NCBI GenBank assembly: GCA_012862575.1
Contig: BLSF01000021.1
Coordinates: 434,001-498,000 of the forward strand
DNA from: Parietichytrium sp. I65-24A
Taxonomy: Eukaryota; Sar; Bigyra; Thraustochytrida; Thraustochytriidae
DNA: 64,000 bases
Direction of reading: 5' to 3'
The position numbers were made by a program, and so were the translations under genes. The notes beneath the pieces were generated by a model that was not told the DNA's origin, did not search any database, and worked only from the letters and a program-made list of their open reading frames with translations. Positions 23,132 to 44,512 of the stretch are shown here, piece after piece. Each line of letters starts with the position of its first letter. The stretch's first letter is position 1.

Positions 23132-24982
23132 TCAACAGACACTTTGGTTCCGAGGGCGGGCGAGGTACTCTTCGGTGAATCTGGAATCTGAAACATGAGC
23201 AGCCGGTCTTGCCCCGAGGAGTCGATGCATCCTTCTGCACGAGTGGAAGAGTTCTTCGCTAGTCGTCACTTGTAGTGGCTCATTTTGCGAGCTGCTACTG
23301 TCCGCTTTCAGTCCGAGTGTGATGACCTTTACGCGATTGCCCTCTTGGTCTTCCTCTACGGAGAGCGACACCATGGAAGTCGCAGCTCTATGATACATGC
23401 GCCGCGGCATGTCCTTCCTTCTGGATCTTGAAGAGTCGTTGCTGGGCTGGCATTCTTGGTTGTCGGATACTTCTTCAATGCTTGACATCTTGCGCAACTC
23501 GGAAACATCCCCACTATGAATCTGGGTATCTGAGACCGGGAGGCTCTGGCCTGCAACACTCGACTCGGCTTCTGGCCGCTCTGTTGACCCAATATTTTGA
23601 GCAGCCTCGTCCATTATGCGTTGCAAAGAGGTCTGAATTTCATCTAAAAAGTGAAAGTAGCCTGGGTTTTCACTGGCCCATGTTCGAAACTGCTCGAGAG
23701 ACATTCCTTCGTTTGGACTCATTTGAAATCGACTCCACGCTTCATCCGCAAAATTGTCACTCAGTTCAGCTTGCGGCATGCTCTGATTGTACGCTTCTTT
23801 GGCCAGTTTCTCTCGGAACCGCTCAAAATTATCTTGCTCCATAAGCTGCATGATCTCTTTTGCCGCTTGCTTGAAGCATTGAATATCAACTGTGGCTTCT
23901 CCTGCCGTTTTTGCCTTTTCAATGGAATCGACAATGGTCTCATGTGTGTTTGACCCAATGTTGATCTGGCTCGGTGCCTCTGCGGCAATATATCTTTCAA
24001 ACAAATTTTGGGCGACTGATATTGGAATACCACCGCCCTCACCAGACGGTATACGCGCAAGCAATTTGTGAGAGCTCGCTTTGTCAGGAGCCTCGGAGCC
24101 CGACTTATCATAGATCTCATCGCACTTTGCCCGGCCCTCATACATGTTGCATAACTCCACGACGGACTCCCAAAAGTCGACCGACTCGGCACTCCACTCC
24201 TGCTTCATGTGGTCTTTAAAAACTTTCCTTCCATGGTCAGTCTGCAGAGCATACTTTAACCGATTACCAAGGATCGAGTATATCATAGTGACGAACTCTG
24301 ACTTTGAGATTGCCCCGTTAGCATCTACATCGAACAAGCGAAATGCAAGGTCAATGTTGTCCGTGGAGGAGCCCTTCTGGGTCAGAAAGGCCATCGCTAT
24401 GAGAAAGTCGTCTTTCTCTACAACACCATCTTCGTCGACGTCAAACAAGGCAAAGATCTTGTCAAATAGCATGTTGTCAACCGCGCCGACGTTGGAAGCA
24501 AAGAGAAGCCGCATCTGCTCCCTGTCAAGTTGCCCGTCACAGTTGGCAAACTTGGTCACCATGTCGTTCAGCCGCAAGGGAAGCCCTTGCAAGTCTGAGG
24601 AAGCCCTTGTCATCGCGCGATTCTCTTTCTCGATCCACTCCTTCCTGTACCTAATCGCGGCGCTCTTAGATGTGGTGAGCTTCCTTCGTGGCAACCTTGG
24701 CTCGCTCACGCTCATCCTCGGCTTGGTTTCGACCCGCTCGCCAACCTTGCCCGGGTCCATCGTCTTACTGCGCCGCACCCAGAATGGTGCTCTCAACTTG
24801 AAACCATCCCTCGTGCTGCCTTTCGCCTCCGGGCGTCCCTGCGCCGTCCCCTGCACTGGCGCCACTTCCTCTGTCAGGTCCCGCCTCGCGTCACGTCCCT
24901 CCACCGCCTCGACCGACTCGACCGCCTGCTCCCTCCCCTCCAAGGAGCTCCGGCGTTGCGGGGACGAGCTGGCGCACCCCAT
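23132..24982 (-). CDS. EF-hand and RGS domain protein with an acylation-type N-terminus
   Basis: A 616-residue protein from ATG 24982. The start MGCASSSP fits N-myristoylation at Gly2 and palmitoylation at Cys3, which would place it at a membrane. EF-hand loops lie at residues about 181-192 (DVDEDGVVEKDD) and 218-229 (DVDANGAISKSE), with a degenerate pair before them. Residues about 252-392 form an RGS domain: GRKVFKDHMKQEWSAESVDFW opens it, APSQINI lies in the middle, and FKQAAKEIMQLMEQDNFERF closes it. A ~45-residue insertion splits it. RGS domains accelerate GTP hydrolysis on heterotrimeric G-alpha. The ~220-residue tail is Ser-rich and disordered. The architecture suggests calcium-controlled termination of G-protein signalling. 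Domain calls are firm; the coupling is inferred. Confidence 0.88.
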   Translation of the reverse strand: MGCASSSPQRRSSLEGREQAVESVEAVEGRDARRDLTEEVAPVQGTAQGRPEAKGSTRDGFKLRAPFWVRRSKTMDPGKVGERVETKPRMSVSEPRLPRRKLTTSKSAAIRYRKEWIEKENRAMTRASSDLQGLPLRLNDMVTKFANCDGQLDREQMRLLFASNVGAVDNMLFDKIFALFDVDEDGVVEKDDFLIAMAFLTQKGSSTDNIDLAFRLFDVDANGAISKSEFVTMIYSILGNRLKYALQTDHGRKVFKDHMKQEWSAESVDFWESVVELCNMYEGRAKCDEIYDKSGSEAPDKASSHKLLARIPSGEGGGIPISVAQNLFERYIAAEAPSQINIGSNTHETIVDSIEKAKTAGEATVDIQCFKQAAKEIMQLMEQDNFERFREKLAKEAYNQSMPQAELSDNFADEAWSRFQMSPNEGMSLEQFRTWASENPGYFHFLDEIQTSLQRIMDEAAQNIGSTERPEAESSVAGQSLPVSDTQIHSGDVSELRKMSSIEEVSDNQECQPSNDSSRSRRKDMPRRMYHRAATSMVSLSVEEDQEGNRVKVITLGLKADSSSSQNEPLQVTTSEELFHSCRRMHRLLGARPAAHVSDSRFTEEYLARPRNQSVC

Positions 24983-25763
24983 CAGGCACGCATTCACCGC
25001 CGCGCTACCTCGGCAGACAGTGCTCTCCGGCAACTTCCGAGCCTAGCGAGCCACCACTGGAGACGTGAGCACCCCGTTCCACGCGCAGCGCTGGACGGAC
25101 TATCGCGCCACTGGGTGGTCGCGCGCTCTCGCGAGGAAAGAACGAAGAAGGCAGGTTGCGCTGAGAGAGACTGCGAGCGAGCGAGAGAGAGAGAGAGTGA
25201 GAGAGCAGAGACAAGTGAGTGTGTATGTGAGTGACCTTCGGAGACACTTGAGACATTGGAAACATCGCATTGGAACGCATTGGAAGAGAAGGGAAAGAGA
25301 AGGAAAGAGACAGAGCACGGTTCTAGTGCCGCGATTAGGGGACAATTACTGCTGCGAGGCAAGTATAGTGTGAAGGTAGAGAACACAAAGTATTCCGACT
25401 AGTCGAACTACAATGGCCGATCGCACAGCGCGGCTAGTGTGAATTAACACACTCACTACAGTCATGCAAATGAAACACTGTGCAATGCTCTAGCGACTAG
25501 CTACTGATACTCTAGTCTAAGTCTACTAGAGAGTACCTGTGCCGGTACTCCCTGCTAGCTAGAGTACAACCACAGAACAGTAACAAACTGGCCGACACTT
25601 GTTTTGGCAGAACGCAAGAATGTGTGATTTTGCGAGGAAAATTAGAATTTAGAATATCATAGAGAGCCATGGCTCATGAACCAGATTAAAAGTTGAATAC
25701 CGAATCTTCGCTGCAAGAGAACTTTTGGTGTCAAACATACTTCTCTTATGCATTTTCGATCGA
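24983..25763. other. Intergenic region between the EF-hand/RGS start and the UBA2 3' end
   Basis: Holds a GA-rich tract at about 25180-25210 near the EF-hand/RGS start and several ACTAG/GTAC short palindromes at 25500-25565. No gene is seen. Confidence 0.55.
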
Positions 25764-31547: not shown

Positions 31548-34546
31548 CTAAGCCCACCCTTTCACGGCTCCACATGCGATGAGGGCAGACCCCCGGCCAC
31601 TGCCATCCTTTGCGAGAACCACTTTGCACAAGCAAGCGAGCTCGCCCAACGCATGGGAGAGTCTCTGACGGAAACTTGGGTGATGTTGATAGACACTACC
31701 ATCAATTCCAACTGTGCAGCCATTTGCGCGCTCGGGACCGATCTGTCTGAGCGTCGCAGCAATACCGCACGCCGTAAGCTTCGCTGCGCGCTGCACAACC
31801 ATTCCGCAAACCTCCTTGAGCATGACGCGATCCTGGATGGTGGAGTTCTGCACACCAAAGTTAGATTCCGTTCTCTGTACGATCAGGAGCTGGTCAGTCA
31901 TGTCATACTCAATCTCCGATAGAAATCTGCTTTCGAAACTGTATGGCTTCTCCAAAATATCAGACACAGTCGTGCCCGCCGAAGTCCAAAGCTCACCGGC
32001 CTTGTGAAGATCTCTTAGACATAGCCGAGCAATCTCACCGAGGTAGAGACCTGAGATCATCTTTTCGAATATTTGATCTCCAGGATTTCTAGACTGGGCG
32101 TCGAGTTCGACATCTACCTCAGTGGCAGGCAATTGAGACCCATTCGAACCAAAGTTTCCCCACTCTGTATTGATTACCATTTCGCCGTCCAGCTTGCGAA
32201 GCTCCTCCGGGAGCTTTGTGATGTTTTCGACTCTCTCGCGGTAGGCGGCATTGGTACCTGTGCCCAGGATGACACCCATCATAGTCTGCGGGTCATTGTA
32301 GGCACTGGAGATGAGTGTTCCCACGGTATCGTTTGCAAGTGCAACTATTTTGGCGTCATAGCCGATCTTGTGAAGAGACTGTTGCAGGAGATCAACCACA
32401 TCATTGCCCCGAACTCCAGATGTTGTGAACCCTTTTGTCCACTTGATGAGAGTACCGCTCGCAAGTGCAGTTTGGTTGACAGGGAAAGAGAAAGTAAAGC
32501 CAACATACCGCTTGCCTTGGTCTTTCTTGATGTCCAAAGAAGCCACACAGCGCGCGAGGAAGTCGAAGAGTTGTTCGGCAGTTCCTGTCATCTCGTCGTT
32601 TGGCACGGTGTATTTGCGCTCGTCAGTCAGCTCCACGCCACCTTTGCCATCAAATTTAAATCTGCTAATTCTAAAGTTGGTGCCGCCCAAGTCCAACGCA
32701 TAGAAGACCCCAGTTTCGGTGCCGTCTGGAACATGAGACACGAAGCTCGGGAGCATCTTGATGGTCCCAGTCTGGTCCCCTGCCAACCCTTTCGCATACT
32801 CTCGCTGGAAGTCAGCCACAATCTCTTCCATCTGGAATGCAGAGAGGTTGAATTGGCGACTGAGGCGGTGTAGCAACGTTTCATGCTTCTTGCCCAATAG
32901 CTCTGAGTCAAGCTTGTACTCCTCAAAACCAACCTCCGACATGAGATCATACGATTCGAGCGGACCCCTACTGCCTACAGAATAGCTGCAGAGCTTGCTT
33001 CTCCAGAGGTCCTTGTCGCTCTCGATTTGCGCAAGCACCGGAGTGAAAATTGCCCACAACGCCGCCAGTTCGTCGACGCGGGTGAAGGAAGTGGTATCCC
33101 CATTGAATACATCGTACAGCATGCGCTCGTACGAGTCTGGCGAGTAGGAATTGATTGGGACATATTTCTCCATGTTCGAGCGGCGGAGGTCGTCGTGGGT
33201 TTGATCGCCTCCGATGGAGTCAAAGCGAACGGAATGCCCGTCAGCCATAGTTGGATTGAGAGGATGAACTCCAGCCATGTCCATGAGCACCGAAGGCTCA
33301 AATCCCATGAGGTCAAGCTTGGTGGGAGCCACATTGAACTTTGTGCCGGGAACTTTGCGCATCATTTTCATGTAAATGTCTCGGTGAGGCTGAACCCTAA
33401 TGACCAGTTCGTTCAGCGGGCCGCCGCCGCGAGAGCTGGGGAACAACATGTTATGCGGCGGCTTGAACTGCACGCGGATATCAGTCCTTCGTTCGTACAT
33501 ACCCTTTCCTGCCTTCAGGATGAATGGAACGCCATGCCACCTTGGGTTATTTATGTAGAGAACGCACATCGCAAAGGTCGGCGTAAGGCTATCCTTTTCA
33601 ATTCCCGGAGTTTCTGTGTAATTGTCGTATTGCCCAAGAACAATGTTGTCAAGCTTTGCGGGCTGTACACAGCGCAGCACCTTGGCTACTTCATCGCGGA
33701 AGCTGAATCCGTCTGTCAAGCTGACTGGCGTTTCCATAGCGATCAGGGCCATGATGTGCAACAAGTGGTCCACCATAATCTCGCGCACAATCCCATACTT
33801 GTCGAAGTACTCCGCGTACTCCTTTGGTCTCACAGTCTTCGCCTCTCTACAACTGATAACCACAGCGTTAATGTTGGTGTTGTTCCACGATGGCTCGAGA
33901 AAACGGTTTGCAAATCTCAAAGCAGTGATGTTTTGAACCATCTCTTTTCCAAGGAAATGGTCCAGGCGATACACATTTCTTTCACCTTGAAATGCCGAGT
34001 GCAGCCCGTTGGCAAGGTTGATGGCCGAGTCTACATCTTTGCCGATGGGCTTTTCAATCACACAGCGGAGCCAACCTTCTTTGCATTGATCTCGCAAGCG
34101 TTGGCACATAATCTCAGAGTCTGAGGGGCCGACTACAAGAGGAGGGACATAGCAGACGACGATGCGCTTCAACCCGGCAAGATTTGCTTTGACTCCATCT
34201 GCGACTTGCTCGGAGAAGTACTCCCCCTGCACAATGACACAGTCTTTAAGAAACGATTTTTGATCCCCCGCGCCGAGATTGTCCTCCAACTTCTCCAGAA
34301 AATCTTCCTGAGAAATACCTGACGAGCAGACACACACAATCTTGGTCTTTGCAATTGAATGCGAGCAGGTGCTATACATGTTGTTCCATCACGTCAGCCC
34401 TGCCACGAAGCTCGAAAACGCAAACCACCGTGATAGGAAATGTCATCAACTTACAGACGAAAGAGCGCCGGGAAAGTTCGCAAGATTGCCGTATCAAGGT
34501 CTGCACCGACCATGACAAAACCGATCTTTGGGTGGTCCTGCTCCAT
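31548..34546 (-). CDS. Glucose-6-phosphate dehydrogenase fused to hexokinase
   Basis: Two exons (34546-34455 and 34371-31548) give 971 residues with no stop between domains. Residues 1 to about 510 are G6PDH: EKPIGKD (137-143), the substrate site YRLDHFLGKE (165-174), catalytic His in DHLLHIMALIAME (about 233), and the end motif VGSRGPLESYDL. From about 528 to the end is hexokinase: ALDLGGTNFR (phosphate loop), FTFSFPVNQ, SGTLIKWTKGF, catalytic Asp in LANDTVGT (about 712), GVILGTGTNAAY, NTEWGNFGS and the C-terminal SGRGSALIACG. The fused enzyme could phosphorylate glucose and oxidise the product, making NADPH. The cofactor motif is abnormal: the usual GxSGDLA reads GADLDTA (14-20). The hexokinase half looks complete. 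Both domains are certain; dehydrogenase activity is less so. No targeting peptide is obvious. Confidence 0.93.
34372..34454 (-). other. Spliceosomal intron of the G6PDH-hexokinase gene (83 nt)
   Basis: The donor is CGTCT|GTAAGT and the acceptor ATGTATAG|CACC (phase 2), with GGGCTGAC as the branch-point candidate about 25 nt from the acceptor. Splicing joins the Rossmann-start exon (TFPALFRL) to the strand TKIVCVCSS, as in the G6PDH fold. Confidence 0.85.
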
Positions 34547-35847
34547 GGTGCCCTGTGACTTTTCGTTCGACGGAGGCGGAAGGGGCAAATAGCTTTTGCG
34601 GGGACTGGAGCAGCCCTCGTTTCGTTTGGGAACTGCTCGAACTGTTCGGCCACTCGCGCGAGACGCGGAGATATACAGTAGAGTGCTGTACAGTGGTTGG
34701 TGCGACGGGCTCAAGAGGATCTTCGTGCAAGCCCTGTCTGACGTGTCTGACGGCAGGCGACGGACGGCTTCAGCACTGTGAGGCACTATTTGTGAATATC
34801 TCTCCGAGGTCGTTCGGTTGGAGTCTCAGGAGTCTCAGACACAAGGAGTCTTCGAGACCAAAGCGAGTGCAAGTCGCAACTTGCTCTCTACGAGACTCGT
34901 ACGAGTGCAAAAGGCAAGAGTGGGAAGAGTGGGAAGGAGACAGTTTTGCCTTCGACGCGCTTTGACCTGCGATAACTCTCGTTGCACGAACGCTACAACG
35001 ACGTCATATGGATCCAATCTCTCTGCAATCGGTACGTCACTGCCCGTCTGCGACTCTAAGCAGATCTTTCTCCCAGCTCTACCACAAACACTGATGCTCC
35101 TTCAGAAAAAGACACGCTCTCAGTATCTCTCAGTATCTCTCAGTAAGTTATTCTCAGTAAGTTTATTTCTCAGTCCAGGCGCCATACACTTTTACCTGAA
35201 CTCCTACGATGATGAGCTGGTACTCACAGTCAATACCAACAGATACCAGTACTAGCTAGCAGGGTACAAGAAGACTTCTCACAACTCTCTCTATGCTCTT
35301 ACGATGGTGTGCAAGTGAATGTAGTAGGCGACGTCGGCACAGGGGAAATTGACAGAGAAGACGTCAATCGTCATCCTGTGTTTTCAGGTCTGTAAGATTT
35401 GTGAGTGATGCTCCCTGTGGATTTGTACATTCTGTATCATTCTGTAGTGCCTGCTGGTTGTGAGTAAATGTGAGGAGGTCGCTTTCGTTGCGCATTGCGA
35501 AACTGACTGTAAGCGCAAAGGTAAGAAAATCGGTTCCAAAATCCTACCTCGCGCTAACCAAAACTCGAGAAATTATAATTTCGGATGATCGCTTTCTAGA
35601 GTACCAGTACTCTAGAGTTCTGGTAGACCAAGCCGAACGATGCTTGCCAAAGTTTACCGAGCTCTGGGATCACTCGTGCCAGGGAGAGAGTGAATTCAGA
35701 AAACAAATGATCAGTGGGGTTGGATTCAGCCATGTCTTTAGCCATCAACATTTCAAGTTGAACGCAGTAGCAGGTCAGGGAAAGAGAAAGCTGCGAATGC
35801 CCGAGATCGTCGCGGAGAGGAAACAAAAAAATTATGAAAAGAAGAAC
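34547..35847. other. Long intergenic region upstream of the fusion gene
   Basis: No gene is seen in 1.3 kb. Holds a CAGTATCTCT repeat near 35120-35160 and a GTACTCACAGTCAATACC element at 35220-35237 followed by CAGTACTAGCTAGC. Confidence 0.55.
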
Positions 35848-35918
35848 TGCCCCGGGGGAGAATCGAACTCCCGCCAATGCGGCCACAACGCAATGTACTG
35901 CCATTATACTACCGGAGC
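35848..35918 (-). tRNA. tRNA-His (anticodon GTG)
   Basis: Read on the minus strand, the 71-nt sequence folds as a cloverleaf. The acceptor pairs GCTCCGG with CCGGGGC, and the T arm is GGGAG-TTCGATT-CTCCC. The anticodon loop is TTGTGGC with anticodon GTG; the anticodon stem has one T-T mismatch. The discriminator base is A. Internal promoter boxes are visible (TAGTATAATGG and AGTTCGATTCT). There is no intron and no encoded CCA. The base before position 1 is A, so the extra 5' G of mature tRNA-His must be added after transcription. Confidence 0.9.
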
Positions 35919-36246
35919 TCCACTTGGTTGCTCTGCCATGACGCCTGGCAATAATATTGTTTTTAATCAAAACGAAGAGTGAATGAAAACGCTTTGTCAA
36001 CGTGTCACGTGGCGAAGCAGCACTCCTCTCCCACAAGGCTTGGTACGCACGAAGACGCTTCGTTGAACAGCAGGCCGGCCGCGGATCCACACTTAGTCTC
36101 CCTGTTTCTTCGGTGCGAAAACTTTCCAGCGCAAGAACTGGGGTTGCTTTTGGCAGACCAGTGTTTTGCAGAGAAGCTCAACGACATTTACTGCTTGTCG
36201 CGCAGGGTGCTGCCACCCAGGGGAGAAGGTTCAGCCAAGGTGAAAA
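35919..36246. other. Short region between tRNA-His and YIF1
   Basis: No gene is seen; probably the YIF1 promoter and 5' leader. Confidence 0.5.
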
Positions 36247-37278
36247 ATGTATCCTAACAACGGGTATGGAGATTATGGGCAGCAGCAACAACAACAACAG
36301 CCACATGGGATGCCACAATATCCGCAAGGTGCGCAGCAGTACGGGGGAGGTGGTGGAGGAGCCTCCATGTATGGCAATCCAGGCAATGATGGCTTTGACA
36401 AAATGATGTCATTTGCGGGCGATAAAGTCGTGCAGGAGTTCGCAGGGGCCAAGTTAAACGACTTTCGCAACCAGGTGGCCGGCAAATACTTGCCGGGGGC
36501 AAGCTCGTTTTGGAACAGCATGCGGTATTACTTTCATGTCGACAACAAGTATGTTCTGAAAAAAGTTCAGGTACTTATCTTCCCCTGGCGCCAGAAGGAG
36601 TGGTCGCGAATTAGGATTGGGGATGAAGCTGTGGACGGGCCCAGCCAGACCAGAATCAGCGATTTTGCTCCTCCAGTAGCAGACATCAACGCTCCCGATA
36701 TGTACCTTCCCAGCATGGCCTTTGTAACATACGTCCTGTTTATCGGCTTTCTGAAGGGCACAAAACGAGCCTTTAATCCCGAGGTGCTGCAAGACACTTT
36801 CAGCACGTCGTGCTTGATTCTTTTGCTAGAGGTCTTGCTCATGAAGGGAGGGCTTTACTCTCTCGGAGGAGCGTCTGTCAAACTTGCTTGGTTGGATTTG
36901 TGTGTCTACTCTGGCTACAAATACGTGGGCATAGCCTTGTGCTTGTTGATCGGAATCTTTATGGGCACTGCCGTATACAACGTCTTCATGTTTTACTTTT
37001 GCTGCTCCGCCGCGTACTTTACTTTTCAGACAATGAAGCGTGCTGTGCCTAAGCCCGGAAACGAAGCGTCTGGTCACAAAAGACGGCTGTACTACTTGAT
37101 GTGCTGCGCGGGACTCCAGCTTTTGGCGATTTTCTTCCTTGGCTTTACTCGAGATCTGGGGGAGTCCACAATGCTGTGGAACTCCTCTCCAGCTCCTCTG
37201 GAACCGGCCATCATAAATCCGACTAAAACAGCAATCAAGCTCGATGCTCCTCTGGAAGATGATGAGGCAGATGTGTGA
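36247..37278 (+). CDS. YIF1: YIF1 family ER-Golgi membrane protein
   Basis: A 343-residue protein that works with YIP1-family partners and Rab GTPases in ER-to-Golgi vesicle traffic. The N-terminus is Gln/Gly/Tyr-rich (residues 1-45). Conserved YIF1 blocks follow: GDKVVQEFAGAKLNDF, SFWNSMRYYFHVDNKYVLKK, and DINAPDMYLPSMAFVTYVLF at the first membrane span. Five hydrophobic segments lie between residues about 155 and 300. The start at ATG 36247 is directly preceded by AAAA and is the only good choice. A poly(T) stretch at 37362-37374 follows the stop. Family assignment is clear. Confidence 0.92.
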   Translation: MYPNNGYGDYGQQQQQQQPHGMPQYPQGAQQYGGGGGGASMYGNPGNDGFDKMMSFAGDKVVQEFAGAKLNDFRNQVAGKYLPGASSFWNSMRYYFHVDNKYVLKKVQVLIFPWRQKEWSRIRIGDEAVDGPSQTRISDFAPPVADINAPDMYLPSMAFVTYVLFIGFLKGTKRAFNPEVLQDTFSTSCLILLLEVLLMKGGLYSLGGASVKLAWLDLCVYSGYKYVGIALCLLIGIFMGTAVYNVFMFYFCCSAAYFTFQTMKRAVPKPGNEASGHKRRLYYLMCCAGLQLLAIFFLGFTRDLGESTMLWNSSPAPLEPAIINPTKTAIKLDAPLEDDEADV

Positions 37279-37729
37279 GAAGCCTCCTTCTGACTTCGAA
37301 GCTTCAGGCCCAAAATTCGATTTTAAAAAGTTAAGCGTTAGCTAATCGAGTTTGAACATGACTTTTTTTTTTTTAGGTGTGGATTTCTTTTGATGCCTCC
37401 CAAACACTTAGTTTCCGACAATTTCGTCAGCAGCGAAGGTTGTGCAAAGGAAAATGGAAAGTACAAGTCTGGATCGTTCAACCATTGCTTTCCAGGTAAA
37501 TCGTTCGGAACTCACGTCTACCGATCCTTTACTCTAAACCCTCATCGCTAAGCTCGGAGAACTACGCCAAGACCTTGAGATCCCAACCTCAGATCCCATG
37601 AAAGTTGATTCCATGCTTTGTATACATTTTTCTTTTAGAACCATTGAGATTACCTGTACATTGGTATAAGCAGGAAGGGTTTCGAGTTCTGCCTCTTTCT
37701 TTGGCTGCTGGCAAATGACGCACACGACT
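37279..37729. other. Convergent intergenic region
   Basis: No gene is seen with confidence between YIF1 and the small minus-strand gene. A short open frame at 37534-37725 has no family features. Confidence 0.5.
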
Positions 37730-41295: not shown

Positions 41296-43563
41296 CTAAA
41301 ATGCCTTGAACATGGCCTGGTCCCCAGAAAAGGGATGCGTAGATTCTCTGACGCGCCGAAATGCTTCGACGTCAAAGTGCGAAGTATCCAGGTGACCGTT
41401 CAGCTCAGGAACCCACGGGGCCTTGATCTGCTTCTCTCTCAACTTGGGGAAGGAGATATCCTCAAAGTATTCGTGTGGGAGCTTGAGCTGTGCGCACGTG
41501 AGCCGTGTCTGAGGGTTCGGATCCCACAGCCGTCGGAGAAGCTGAGAGACAACCACGTAGTCGTGCTCGTGGGCAAACACCTGTGCTAATTGGTTCCAGT
41601 TGACTACTTTTGCACCTTCCATTATCCGCTTAAAAACAATCATATTGTCGTTGTTTCCCGAGGTGTCTGCGAAAGGAGAGTATTGCGTAAGCAGCTCAAA
41701 AATTAATACACCAAGGCTCCAACAGTCCACAGCCCAGAAATGCCCACTGCGAGAGACTGCCTCCGGCGCAAGGTAGTCCGGAGTACCGCACAGCGTTCGA
41801 GTGGTCTCTCCGTGCTCAAGTTGTTTAGCGAATCCAAAGTCGATAATTTTCAAGTAACCATCGGAAGAGAGCACAAGATTCTCGAGCTTGAGATCCCTGT
41901 ATGCAATTCGCTTGCGGTGCAAGTACGATAAGCCTTCGGTGATACATGCGGCATAAAACTTCACGTCTTCGGCTGGCAGTCCGCCGTTACTACTTATGAC
42001 GCGTGAAAATAGCTCGCCACCTTGAACAAGCTCGAGAAGCATGTATATGTGATGCCTGGTTTGAAATGTTTTGATCAGCGAGAGAATGAACGGGTGCGAG
42101 GTTTGCTCAAGTATACTACGCTCATTATTGACGTGCTGAACTTGATTTCTGGAAACGAGATCTTGCTTGTTCATGGTCTTGAGTGCAAAGGAAAGCTCCT
42201 CTTGTGCTGGCATCTCGTCAGCATTTGGGTTATTGCCAGGTGAAAAGGTGACAATCCTTACCACGGAAAAGGCCCCCTCGCCAATTACCTGCATGATCTG
42301 CAGGGAGTTGAGACTTTCTAGCGTAGCAGCAATGTCGCATCGCTCGTGCCTAAATACAGTTTCGTGATTATCCTCCTTGCGCATTTCTGATTTGCTGGCA
42401 ATTCGCCGAATCACCGTGTCACTATTCGAGACCACTTGCGCAAAAGCGTTTCGAGAGAGGGTGAAGCATACAGTATACTCAACAGCGCGAACCGTCGCGC
42501 TTCTTGGGTCTTTACTCAAGAGCGCCATTTCGCCAAACCACTGCCCTTCCTTGAGCGTTGCCAAGTGGTGTTCGCGCCGCTCCACGTTTGTAGGAAAATG
42601 GCTCATGGTACTCGCCGCTCGTGAATGCGTTGCTCGGCCGCTCGAGTAAGCGGCAGTTGGACTATTACAGCTGCTTTTTGCCCGGCGATGTCCGGATCTC
42701 TCGCTAGTGTTGAGTTCTTCCATCAAGGTATCCAAATCTTCAATGTTAACAGCACCTTCGTGGGAATCGTCTTCGCTGGACTGCCGTCGCTTATTCACGT
42801 GAACTGACACCTCCACGGTCCCCTTCGAAATGGTATAAAACTTATCATTCACACCGGGCTGGAGTATCTCCCCCTCTGAACAAATCACCGTACCGGGAGG
42901 GAAGACCTCCTCTTGCATGACTGCAGCAATACGCCGTACTTTGCTGTTGTCCAGCTTCTCGAATTCCGGGATCATTTGCAGCTGCGCCACGCGCTTTTCT
43001 ATATTTTCAGACATGAAGTTGCTCTCCAACTGCCGGAGTGTTTCACGTGGCAGACACCAAAGTCTGGCCGCTTCGGAGGAGACGGACACTGTCGCAGCTC
43101 GCAACGAGTCAAACAAGACAGCCAACTCCCCGAACACTCGATTCTGGCCGAGGGTGTCTACTACACTGCTGGACGCCTCAGAACTGCTCACATCAAGGAC
43201 GCCGGTTTCCACCACGTAAAGAGTGTCCCCAACTTCTCCCTCTCTGATAACAACTTGTCCTCTAGTCGCGTCAAGTTTTGTCATCGATTTTGCTATTCGC
43301 TCAATCTGCTCTCTGCTCGTCCCGGAGAACAAAAAATGGTTCCACATGACATCCACCAAACCTGGCCATATTTCGGCGGCCTCTGGCACACTGTCCCATG
43401 CCTCTAAAGCCTTATCCTGGCTGGAGTCCTCGCAGGCACTGGGAGAGTCGCACCCAGCTGAGTGTTCTTGCAGAGCTCCAAGGGTCTGACTGCTTTGGGC
43501 CTCACTGCTTTGTGTTTCCGGCAGGTAAAAAAGCTCTTGGCGCCTCTTGTAAACCTTATCCAT
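41296..43563 (-). CDS. cGMP-dependent-type protein kinase (two cyclic-nucleotide domains plus AGC kinase)
   Basis: A 755-residue protein from ATG 43563 (MDKVYKRRQE). The frame is open for 75 more codons upstream but offers no ATG and no splice site I could support. Two cyclic-nucleotide-binding domains precede the kinase. The first has cassette FGELAVLFDSLRAATV (about 144-159) and the second FGEMALLSKDPRSATV (about 343-358). Both keep the Glu and Arg that hold the cyclic phosphate. The second is split by a ~75-residue Ser-rich insert (about 258-332). The kinase spans about 424-700: IGEGAFSVV, FALKTMN, YRDLKLENLVL, DFGFAK and TLCGTPDYLAPE. An FxxF-type C-terminus (FKAF) is present, as in PKA and PKG. 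Ligand choice between cGMP and cAMP is not certain from sequence. Confidence 0.9.
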   Translation of the reverse strand: MDKVYKRRQELFYLPETQSSEAQSSQTLGALQEHSAGCDSPSACEDSSQDKALEAWDSVPEAAEIWPGLVDVMWNHFLFSGTSREQIERIAKSMTKLDATRGQVVIREGEVGDTLYVVETGVLDVSSSEASSSVVDTLGQNRVFGELAVLFDSLRAATVSVSSEAARLWCLPRETLRQLESNFMSENIEKRVAQLQMIPEFEKLDNSKVRRIAAVMQEEVFPPGTVICSEGEILQPGVNDKFYTISKGTVEVSVHVNKRRQSSEDDSHEGAVNIEDLDTLMEELNTSERSGHRRAKSSCNSPTAAYSSGRATHSRAASTMSHFPTNVERREHHLATLKEGQWFGEMALLSKDPRSATVRAVEYTVCFTLSRNAFAQVVSNSDTVIRRIASKSEMRKEDNHETVFRHERCDIAATLESLNSLQIMQVIGEGAFSVVRIVTFSPGNNPNADEMPAQEELSFALKTMNKQDLVSRNQVQHVNNERSILEQTSHPFILSLIKTFQTRHHIYMLLELVQGGELFSRVISSNGGLPAEDVKFYAACITEGLSYLHRKRIAYRDLKLENLVLSSDGYLKIIDFGFAKQLEHGETTRTLCGTPDYLAPEAVSRSGHFWAVDCWSLGVLIFELLTQYSPFADTSGNNDNMIVFKRIMEGAKVVNWNQLAQVFAHEHDYVVVSQLLRRLWDPNPQTRLTCAQLKLPHEYFEDISFPKLREKQIKAPWVPELNGHLDTSHFDVEAFRRVRESTHPFSGDQAMFKAF

Positions 43564-44512
43564 CCCGTCAGCTACCCAAAACGAGGAAGACCTCGTCCAC
43601 GTGTGCGAAGCCAGTGTGTCTACGCTCGGAGAGGCGATCACGCCGATTCCACCGCCCTGCAAACGCTCGTCTTCGAGCTCGGTTCTGGCGCTTGCTTTCC
43701 CACTCTCAACCTGAGACTTGGGCTGCGTGGGTCTACCGCCCGCTGTGCACCGAGTATCGTATGGAGACGCTGAGACCAGATTTGTCAATAGTCAACAAGG
43801 TGACTGGGTGAGCGAGAACTTGGCCTTGACAAGACTCGCAGGAAGCGTCAAAGTGAGGATCCAGGCCGCGCGCAAGGCCAGTGCGCTCGCAGTTCGCCGG
43901 CTGTTCCGCTGGCTGAAGATGGCCGCGAATGTGCCTTCTCGGAAGCTGACAGACAGGGCGCTCGTGTGCTCGTGTGCTCGTGTGCTGTGCCGTTTTAGAA
44001 AGGGGAAAGGCGCGAGGCATGGCCCGTGCATTGGGGCCAAGGACTCGATAATCAAATCCCTAGTACTGCGGGGGCGCACACCCGTGGGCGAAGCTGAGTG
44101 TCAGTGACACACTGACACTTTCTATTGAGTCAATAAAGAGAACCTTAGTAGATTGGTAGAACTTGCCGTGATTGAAGGAGGTACTACTAAAAGTGCCATA
44201 AGGAGAGGACAAAATTGTTACCTACCGCCTTTTTAACAACAATGCTATGGTCTCTTACTCTGACAAACTTTTCCTATTGTTACCGCTAATAGTCATTCGT
44301 GCATTCTGCAGGACCAGCAGACAGACCTTCGGAGCATCCAAGCTCTCTCTGAGGAGTCAGACTTTGTCCGTATCAAACAGAGCAAAGGTTTCATTGGAAG
44401 ATGGAATAAATGGAGGACCGATAATATATACATTCATACAGGACTCCCTCATCGTTTTGAATTTTGAACTGACACCGGCTTCAGTAGTGCGTTGCACGCA
44501 AGTAAAGGCAAG
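43564..44512. other. Intergenic region upstream of the kinase and downstream of the carrier gene
   Basis: No supportable gene. A GTGCTCGTGTGCTCGT repeat lies at 43960-43985 and AATAAA at 44132. A possible N-terminal extension of the kinase reaches into its left part. Confidence 0.5.

Follow-up and report, generated by a model that had tools for sequence, protein, structure and literature searches.

A gene on the minus strand of the window (the whole stretch of 64,000 nucleotides analysed here) encodes a glucose-6-phosphate dehydrogenase (G6PD) and a hexokinase as one protein, with the dehydrogenase first. The residues of the two halves suggest that an active hexokinase is joined to a probably inactive G6PD paralogue, which may serve as a glucose-6-phosphate (G6P)-binding regulatory or positioning module; we give this reading about an even chance of being correct. 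Hexokinase and G6PD act where glucose enters glycolysis and the NADPH-making pathway, and their fusion makes a coupling of the two testable in a single molecule.

Structure of the gene and the junction between the halves

The fusion gene is located at positions 31548 to 34546, on contig C21 of an assembly of 42.5 Mb in 172 contigs. Exon 1 (34455 to 34546, minus strand; 92 bases) extends from the ATG at 34546 to the donor and codes for MEQDHPKIGFVMVGADLDTAILRTFPALFR plus two bases. It is followed by an 83-base intron (34372 to 34454, minus strand; GTAAGT...ATAG), whose donor is at 34454, and by exon 2 (31548 to 34371, minus strand), which ends at 31548 with the stop codon included and contains no stop and no N upstream of its end. 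The two exons joined in frame yield a product of 971 residues. The sequence-only reading had given both the coordinates and this length correctly, the strand being minus, and had described the frame as uninterrupted, which was mistaken because the intron (34454 to 34372) parts exon 1 from exon 2. Without splicing, the open frame comprises 943 codons, 940 of them in exon 2, and its ATG at 34379 falls inside the intron, 8 bases before the acceptor. The chance of a frame of 943 codons at the local base composition was about 3e-20.

The Pfam match to G6PD_N speaks for this splice model, because the score increased from 74.6 bits (profile positions 30 to 183) without exon 1 to 91.8 bits (1 to 183) with it; exon 1 thus adds 17 bits and extends the match to profile position 1. 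The model is further supported by the second G6PD gene of this genome (C32), since the donor GTAAGT and a terminal AG were also present in all four introns placed in that paralogue. The intron donor is the sole GT[AG]AG within 34366 to 34546. The degenerate dinucleotide-binding turn of the fusion protein, GADLDTA, sits in exon 1. A tRNA gene was observed on the minus strand at 35848 to 35918 of the window, approximately 1.3 kb upstream of the start codon of the fusion gene.

Four Pfam domains were matched in the spliced frame in the order G6PD_N, G6PD_C, Hexokinase_1, and Hexokinase_2. On the minus strand, the exon 2 portion of G6PD_N (the coenzyme domain) is located at 33930 to 34352, and G6PD_C (the substrate and dimer domain) at 32928 to 33923 in two stretches (33309 to 33923 and 32928 to 33155); Hexokinase_1 and Hexokinase_2 are located at 32298 to 32873 and 31572 to 32282, respectively. 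The scores were 91.8 bits for G6PD_N (cut-off 22.1), 264.3 for G6PD_C (cut-off 27), 222 for Hexokinase_1 (cut-off 24.3), and 258.6 for Hexokinase_2 (cut-off 24). With all four domains far above their cut-offs in one spliced frame, the earlier proposal of a single protein with the dehydrogenase first was borne out. The Pfam scan detected no 6-phosphogluconolactonase (6PGL) domain in the fusion protein.

The halves are joined by a linker of 19 residues, GFEEYKLDSELLGKKHETL, at 32874 to 32930 (minus strand). A junction had been expected at about 32,970, and the linker is indeed present, but slightly further downstream, at 32,930 to 32,874. That a misassembly or a missed splice has joined two separate genes would be in keeping with the use of one assembly only, without RNA. 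We consider such an artefact highly improbable, as the sequence is in frame and continuous across a short linker that connects natural domain ends, with no N. Moreover, no GT[AG]AG donor-like site occurs less than 790 bases from the junction, the three such sites of exon 2 being at 33833, 32038, and 31996. In addition, among the best-scoring candidates of the assembly there was no other Hexokinase_1 or Hexokinase_2 match, and the G6PD matches were accounted for by the fusion gene and two distinct paralogues.

The dehydrogenase half and its paralogues

Three G6PD genes were found in the assembly: the fusion gene and genes on C32 and C51. The spliced protein of the C32 gene is a standard G6PD with GASGDLAKKK and GYAR, in which all 10 listed G6P and catalysis residues are as in the human enzyme. 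It is an intact cytosolic-type G6PD that can supply the dehydrogenase. The C51 gene was closest to the human ER hexose-6-phosphate dehydrogenase (H6PD), scoring 237 bits against 180 for the second-best solved structure, and grouped with human H6PD in a tree with support of 100/99; it lacks R72, and its fingerprint reads GATGNLA. The C51 frame (approximately 242.3 to 244.2 kb) was also seen to have a hydrophobic N-terminus resembling a signal peptide and a C-terminal KHDEL, and, in contrast to animal H6PD, it ends without a 6PGL domain.

Control sequences were taken from 109 loci, of which 105 had a usable frame and 102, of at least 440 aa, were aligned. They were bacterial and viral, not eukaryotic; the 109 loci comprised the best 80 of at least 592 bacterial loci by similarity to C32 and 29 viral loci. 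Because the frames were picked with DH[YF][LM]GK, the controls necessarily conserve D200, H201, G204, and K205; this does not apply to Y202, since the pattern allows Y or F. The residue comparison excluded W509, as the aligned human sequence ends before it. It included P143, Y147, R246, E239, W349, R357, R370, E206, E419, and R427, which we take to be functional residues.

The GxxGDLx fingerprint (human positions 38 to 44) reads GADLDTA in the fusion protein, with Gly41 changed to Leu and Leu43 changed to Thr. Both G41 and L43 were identical in 101 of the 102 controls, the remaining one having a gap. Arg72, which 100 of the 102 controls share, has given way to Ser, and Arg246, shared by every one of the 102, to Tyr. 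According to the available part of PMC11448927, the main-chain groups of Gly41 and Asp42 touch the coenzyme and the position of Arg72 is near the 2′-phosphate of NADP+. Human H6PD, which that source lists among the G6PDs, counts as an active enzyme; the loss of R72 alone therefore proves nothing, because C51, too, lacks it. A GxxG[DN][LM] peptide was absent from the three minus-strand frames of 34380 to 37500 and from the 943-codon frame. An alternative upstream first exon with a normal fingerprint was therefore rejected, as no exon in 34380 to 37500 can restore it.

The fusion protein retains the catalytic dyad D200/H263, K171, and the EKPxG motif, and 8 of the 10 listed G6P and catalysis residues, the dyad included, are identical to those of human G6PD. 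The G6P pocket is, as judged from these residues, weakened by the other two changes, Y202F and D258E. The substrate and catalytic motifs had been described beforehand as intact; this holds for the eight residues but not for Y202 and D258, and the loss of the NADP+ fingerprint had been missed. When G38/G41/D42/L43, R72, and E170/K171/P172/G174 were taken alone, 6 of the 9 were kept. Seven of the 11 structural-NADP+ residues match the human ones, and the same seven match in C32. Because the coenzyme-binding turn and the 2′-phosphate arginine are lost, the G6PD half is probably poor at NADP+ reduction and probably no longer carries it out at a useful rate. Counting against inactivity is the retention of D200, H263, K171, and EKPxG, which a dead enzyme need not keep. 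Rossmann folds with altered turns can still bind nucleotides.

The losses fall disproportionately on the coenzyme domain. The identity of the half with human G6PD was 25% for the N-domain against 47% for the C-domain, and the ratio, 0.54, was the lowest of 105 sequences (0.64 to 1.00 in the 102 controls, 0.71 in C32, and 0.95 in C51). Near-universal columns were kept at 4 of 11 positions in human 34 to 150 versus 62 of 75 beyond 150 (Fisher p 0.0025, with the split at 150 picked after inspection of the data); when the split was set at 200, the counts were 14 of 23 before it and 52 of 63 beyond it (p 0.046). In total, 66 of the 86 near-universal columns were kept in the fusion protein and 79 in C32. 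Column loss by itself is no sign of inactivity, because the H6PD-type C51 keeps just 49 or 50 of the 86, depending on the count.

An insert near the dimer interface (33132 to 33311, minus strand) places 60 residues between the positions that correspond to D421 and Y437 of human G6PD. This stretch has 15 residues in human G6PD, 10 to 17 in the controls (n = 102), 15 in C32, and 19 in C51, so that the fusion protein has approximately 45 extra residues. Disorder was predicted for 33147 to 33272, and the pLDDT was below 50 at model residues 370 to 411. The structure model was made from the frame at 32880 to 34379, that is, without exon 1 and the hexokinase and with three leading residues foreign to the spliced protein. 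It was predicted to adopt the G6PD fold (pLDDT 78, pTM 0.80), and its best matches among solved structures were human G6PD, with a TM of about 0.75.

In a tree of 23 rows, which took 18 of the 102 controls and human as the only other eukaryotic G6PD, the G6PD half of the fusion protein was sister to C32 with support of 95/82. Its branch length was 2.62, roughly three times the 0.78 of its sister, and as a long branch its placement was flagged as unsure by the tree tool. Its identity was 39% both to human G6PD and to C32. There is moderate support from these data that the G6PD half is a duplicate of the lineage's ordinary G6PD.

The hexokinase half and other glucose kinases

Both hexokinase domains and the motifs KWTKGF, LANDTVGT, GTGTNAAY, INTEWGNFG, NPGDQIFEKMISG, and LDLGGTNFR are present in the second half of the protein, which thus looks complete, in agreement with the sequence-only reading. 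The motifs, which we take to be the glucose-binding residues and the ATP loops, align with human HK2, and human HK2 was the closest solved structure to this half. The Pfam scan found one Hexokinase_1 and one Hexokinase_2 stretch and not the two-halved tandem arrangement of mammalian HK1-3. The hexokinase motifs LDLGGT and WTKGF occurred in none of the 105 control G6PD frames, as expected for bacteria and phages. Pattern searches with the hexokinase half gave 8 matches in viral contigs and 15 in prokaryote genome contigs, none of them a confirmed relative. The contig collections searched hold no ordinary eukaryote genomes, and therefore little was learned from them on the distribution of the fusion.

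Among the best-scoring candidates of the 42.5-Mb assembly, Hexokinase_1 and Hexokinase_2 were matched solely in the fusion gene, and a bacterial-type glucokinase gave no match. An ADP-dependent glucokinase was found at one locus (C43:160517-161851), where a single open frame was matched along almost its full length, and a ROK-family kinase at another (C32:58429-59525), where the match was in pieces. The notion that the fusion is the sole glucose kinase was therefore rejected, as these two loci make another route to glucose phosphorylation possible. Triosephosphate isomerase is encoded by two separate genes, on contigs C53 and C50; no glyceraldehyde-3-phosphate dehydrogenase was seen by eye in frame with either of them in the stretches read. 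Among the rRNA genes, neither a 5.8S match nor an exact match to an 18S start sequence was obtained in the assembly.

Possible roles of the fusion protein and comparison with known systems

The G6PD half, which seems to be a duplicate of the ordinary G6PD, is joined by the short linker to the complete hexokinase; it has lost its coenzyme turn and retained the catalytic dyad together with most residues of the G6P pocket. The hexokinase half is probably active and ATP-dependent, producing G6P; the pseudo-dehydrogenase would bind G6P and might also bind NADP+ at its structural site, thereby regulating or positioning the attached hexokinase. We infer the regulation by G6P from residues only. The fusion protein is probably cytosolic, as no targeting signal was noticed by eye. 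It is possible, if doubtful, that the former G6PD domain is a built-in sensor, which binds G6P and structural NADP+ and tunes phosphorylation to G6P and to the demand for NADPH. Were the half such a recruited sensor, a metabolic enzyme would have been turned into an allosteric domain of the preceding enzyme of its pathway.

The main rival to a regulatory or positioning module is that the inactive G6PD half pairs with subunits of the C32 enzyme, so that the hexokinase is brought to the dehydrogenase and G6P is passed in trans. The sister position to C32 in the tree is in line with such docking, as are four of the six dimer positions listed (K407, F216, F381, and E206), which match human G6PD, and the interaction of the inactive plant G6PD4 with the active G6PD1, described in the available part of PMC12125578. 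We nevertheless regard docking as unlikely, since most of the insert of approximately 45 residues near the dimer interface is predicted to be disordered, E419 and R427 are changed (the alignment is unsure there), and the identity to C32 is just 39%. The sequence-only reading was that the fusion could channel G6P into NADPH production, with both halves active. The two enzymes do catalyse consecutive steps, the G6PD fold is predicted, and 8 of the 10 G6P and catalysis residues, with the dyad, K171, and EKPxG, are kept; a bifunctional enzyme of this kind would need an unusual, though possible, coenzyme-binding mode. Channelling is made doubtful by the loss of the coenzyme fingerprint (G41L and L43T), R72, and R246, by the erosion of the coenzyme domain, and by the fast evolution seen in the long branch; a separate intact G6PD is also present in the genome. 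We therefore judge it improbable, and the case counsels against taking each fusion of consecutive enzymes for an instance of substrate channelling.

It is also conceivable, but quite improbable in our estimation, that the G6PD half now lacks any role, being a passenger whose frame is held open by the hexokinase downstream. Its fast evolution would fit this, and so would its position ahead of the one Hexokinase_1/2 gene found, where a lack of stops is uninformative, given that the hexokinase follows in the same frame. The conserved residues of the C-domain appear to be a better sign of constraint than the open frame, and these (62 of 75 near-universal columns beyond position 150), together with the structural-NADP+ residues shared with C32, argue against a passenger and are consistent with a G6P-binding module attached to the hexokinase.

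The fusion protein shares with cytosolic G6PDs (human G6PD and C32) the G6PD_N and G6PD_C domains, the predicted fold, the catalytic dyad, and most residues of the G6P pocket. It differs from them in the absence of GxxGDLx and R72, the approximately 45 extra residues, and the attached hexokinase. With animal-type hexokinases (HK1, HK2, and glucokinase), it shares complete Hexokinase_1 and Hexokinase_2 domains. Mammalian HK1 has an N-terminal hexokinase half, which is its regulatory part, and the fusion protein has a G6PD-derived domain in that place. If the sensor reading is true, this domain would parallel the regulatory N-half of mammalian hexokinase I, having arisen independently and from another enzyme.

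Known G6PD fusions had been said to join it to 6PGL, which is incomplete. In G6PD-6PGL fusions (H6PD, Plasmodium, Giardia, and Trichomonas), G6PD is likewise joined to a neighbouring pathway enzyme, as the available part of PMC3148214 describes; here, in contrast, the partner is the preceding enzyme, hexokinase, and the dehydrogenase half is degenerate. The G6PDH/6PGDH protein of Phaeodactylum tricornutum, given in the parts available of PMC3148214 and PMC2173943, is likewise a natural fusion but has a different partner, and doubt about it is reported in the former. The plant P0 isoform G6PD4 is reported to be an inactive family member that interacts with an active isoform; it is not described as fused in the available part of PMC12125578, and the fusion protein is likened to it by its residue-predicted inactivity only. 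Within its available part, PMC3148214, a survey of 119 eukaryotes, names G6PD fusions with 6PGL and 6PGD and none with hexokinase, and in that of PMC6198282 a hexokinase fusion does not come up. Searches among open-licence papers yielded no description of a natural hexokinase-G6PD fusion, in keeping with the initial impression that this arrangement had not been described.

Other multidomain frames were observed in the window and elsewhere in the assembly. On the minus strand of the window, 41296 to 43788 encodes a protein resembling a cGMP-dependent protein kinase, in which a kinase domain is combined with two cyclic-nucleotide-binding stretches, and 23132 to 25033 combines EF-hands and an RGS domain in one open frame. 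The carrier-protein domains searched for in the assembly did not form the tightly packed array expected of thraustochytrids. Contigs C7 and C66 contain open frames of 4460 and 5583 aa, in which several carrier-protein domains are located kilobases apart, a layout resembling that of modular polyketide or peptide synthases.
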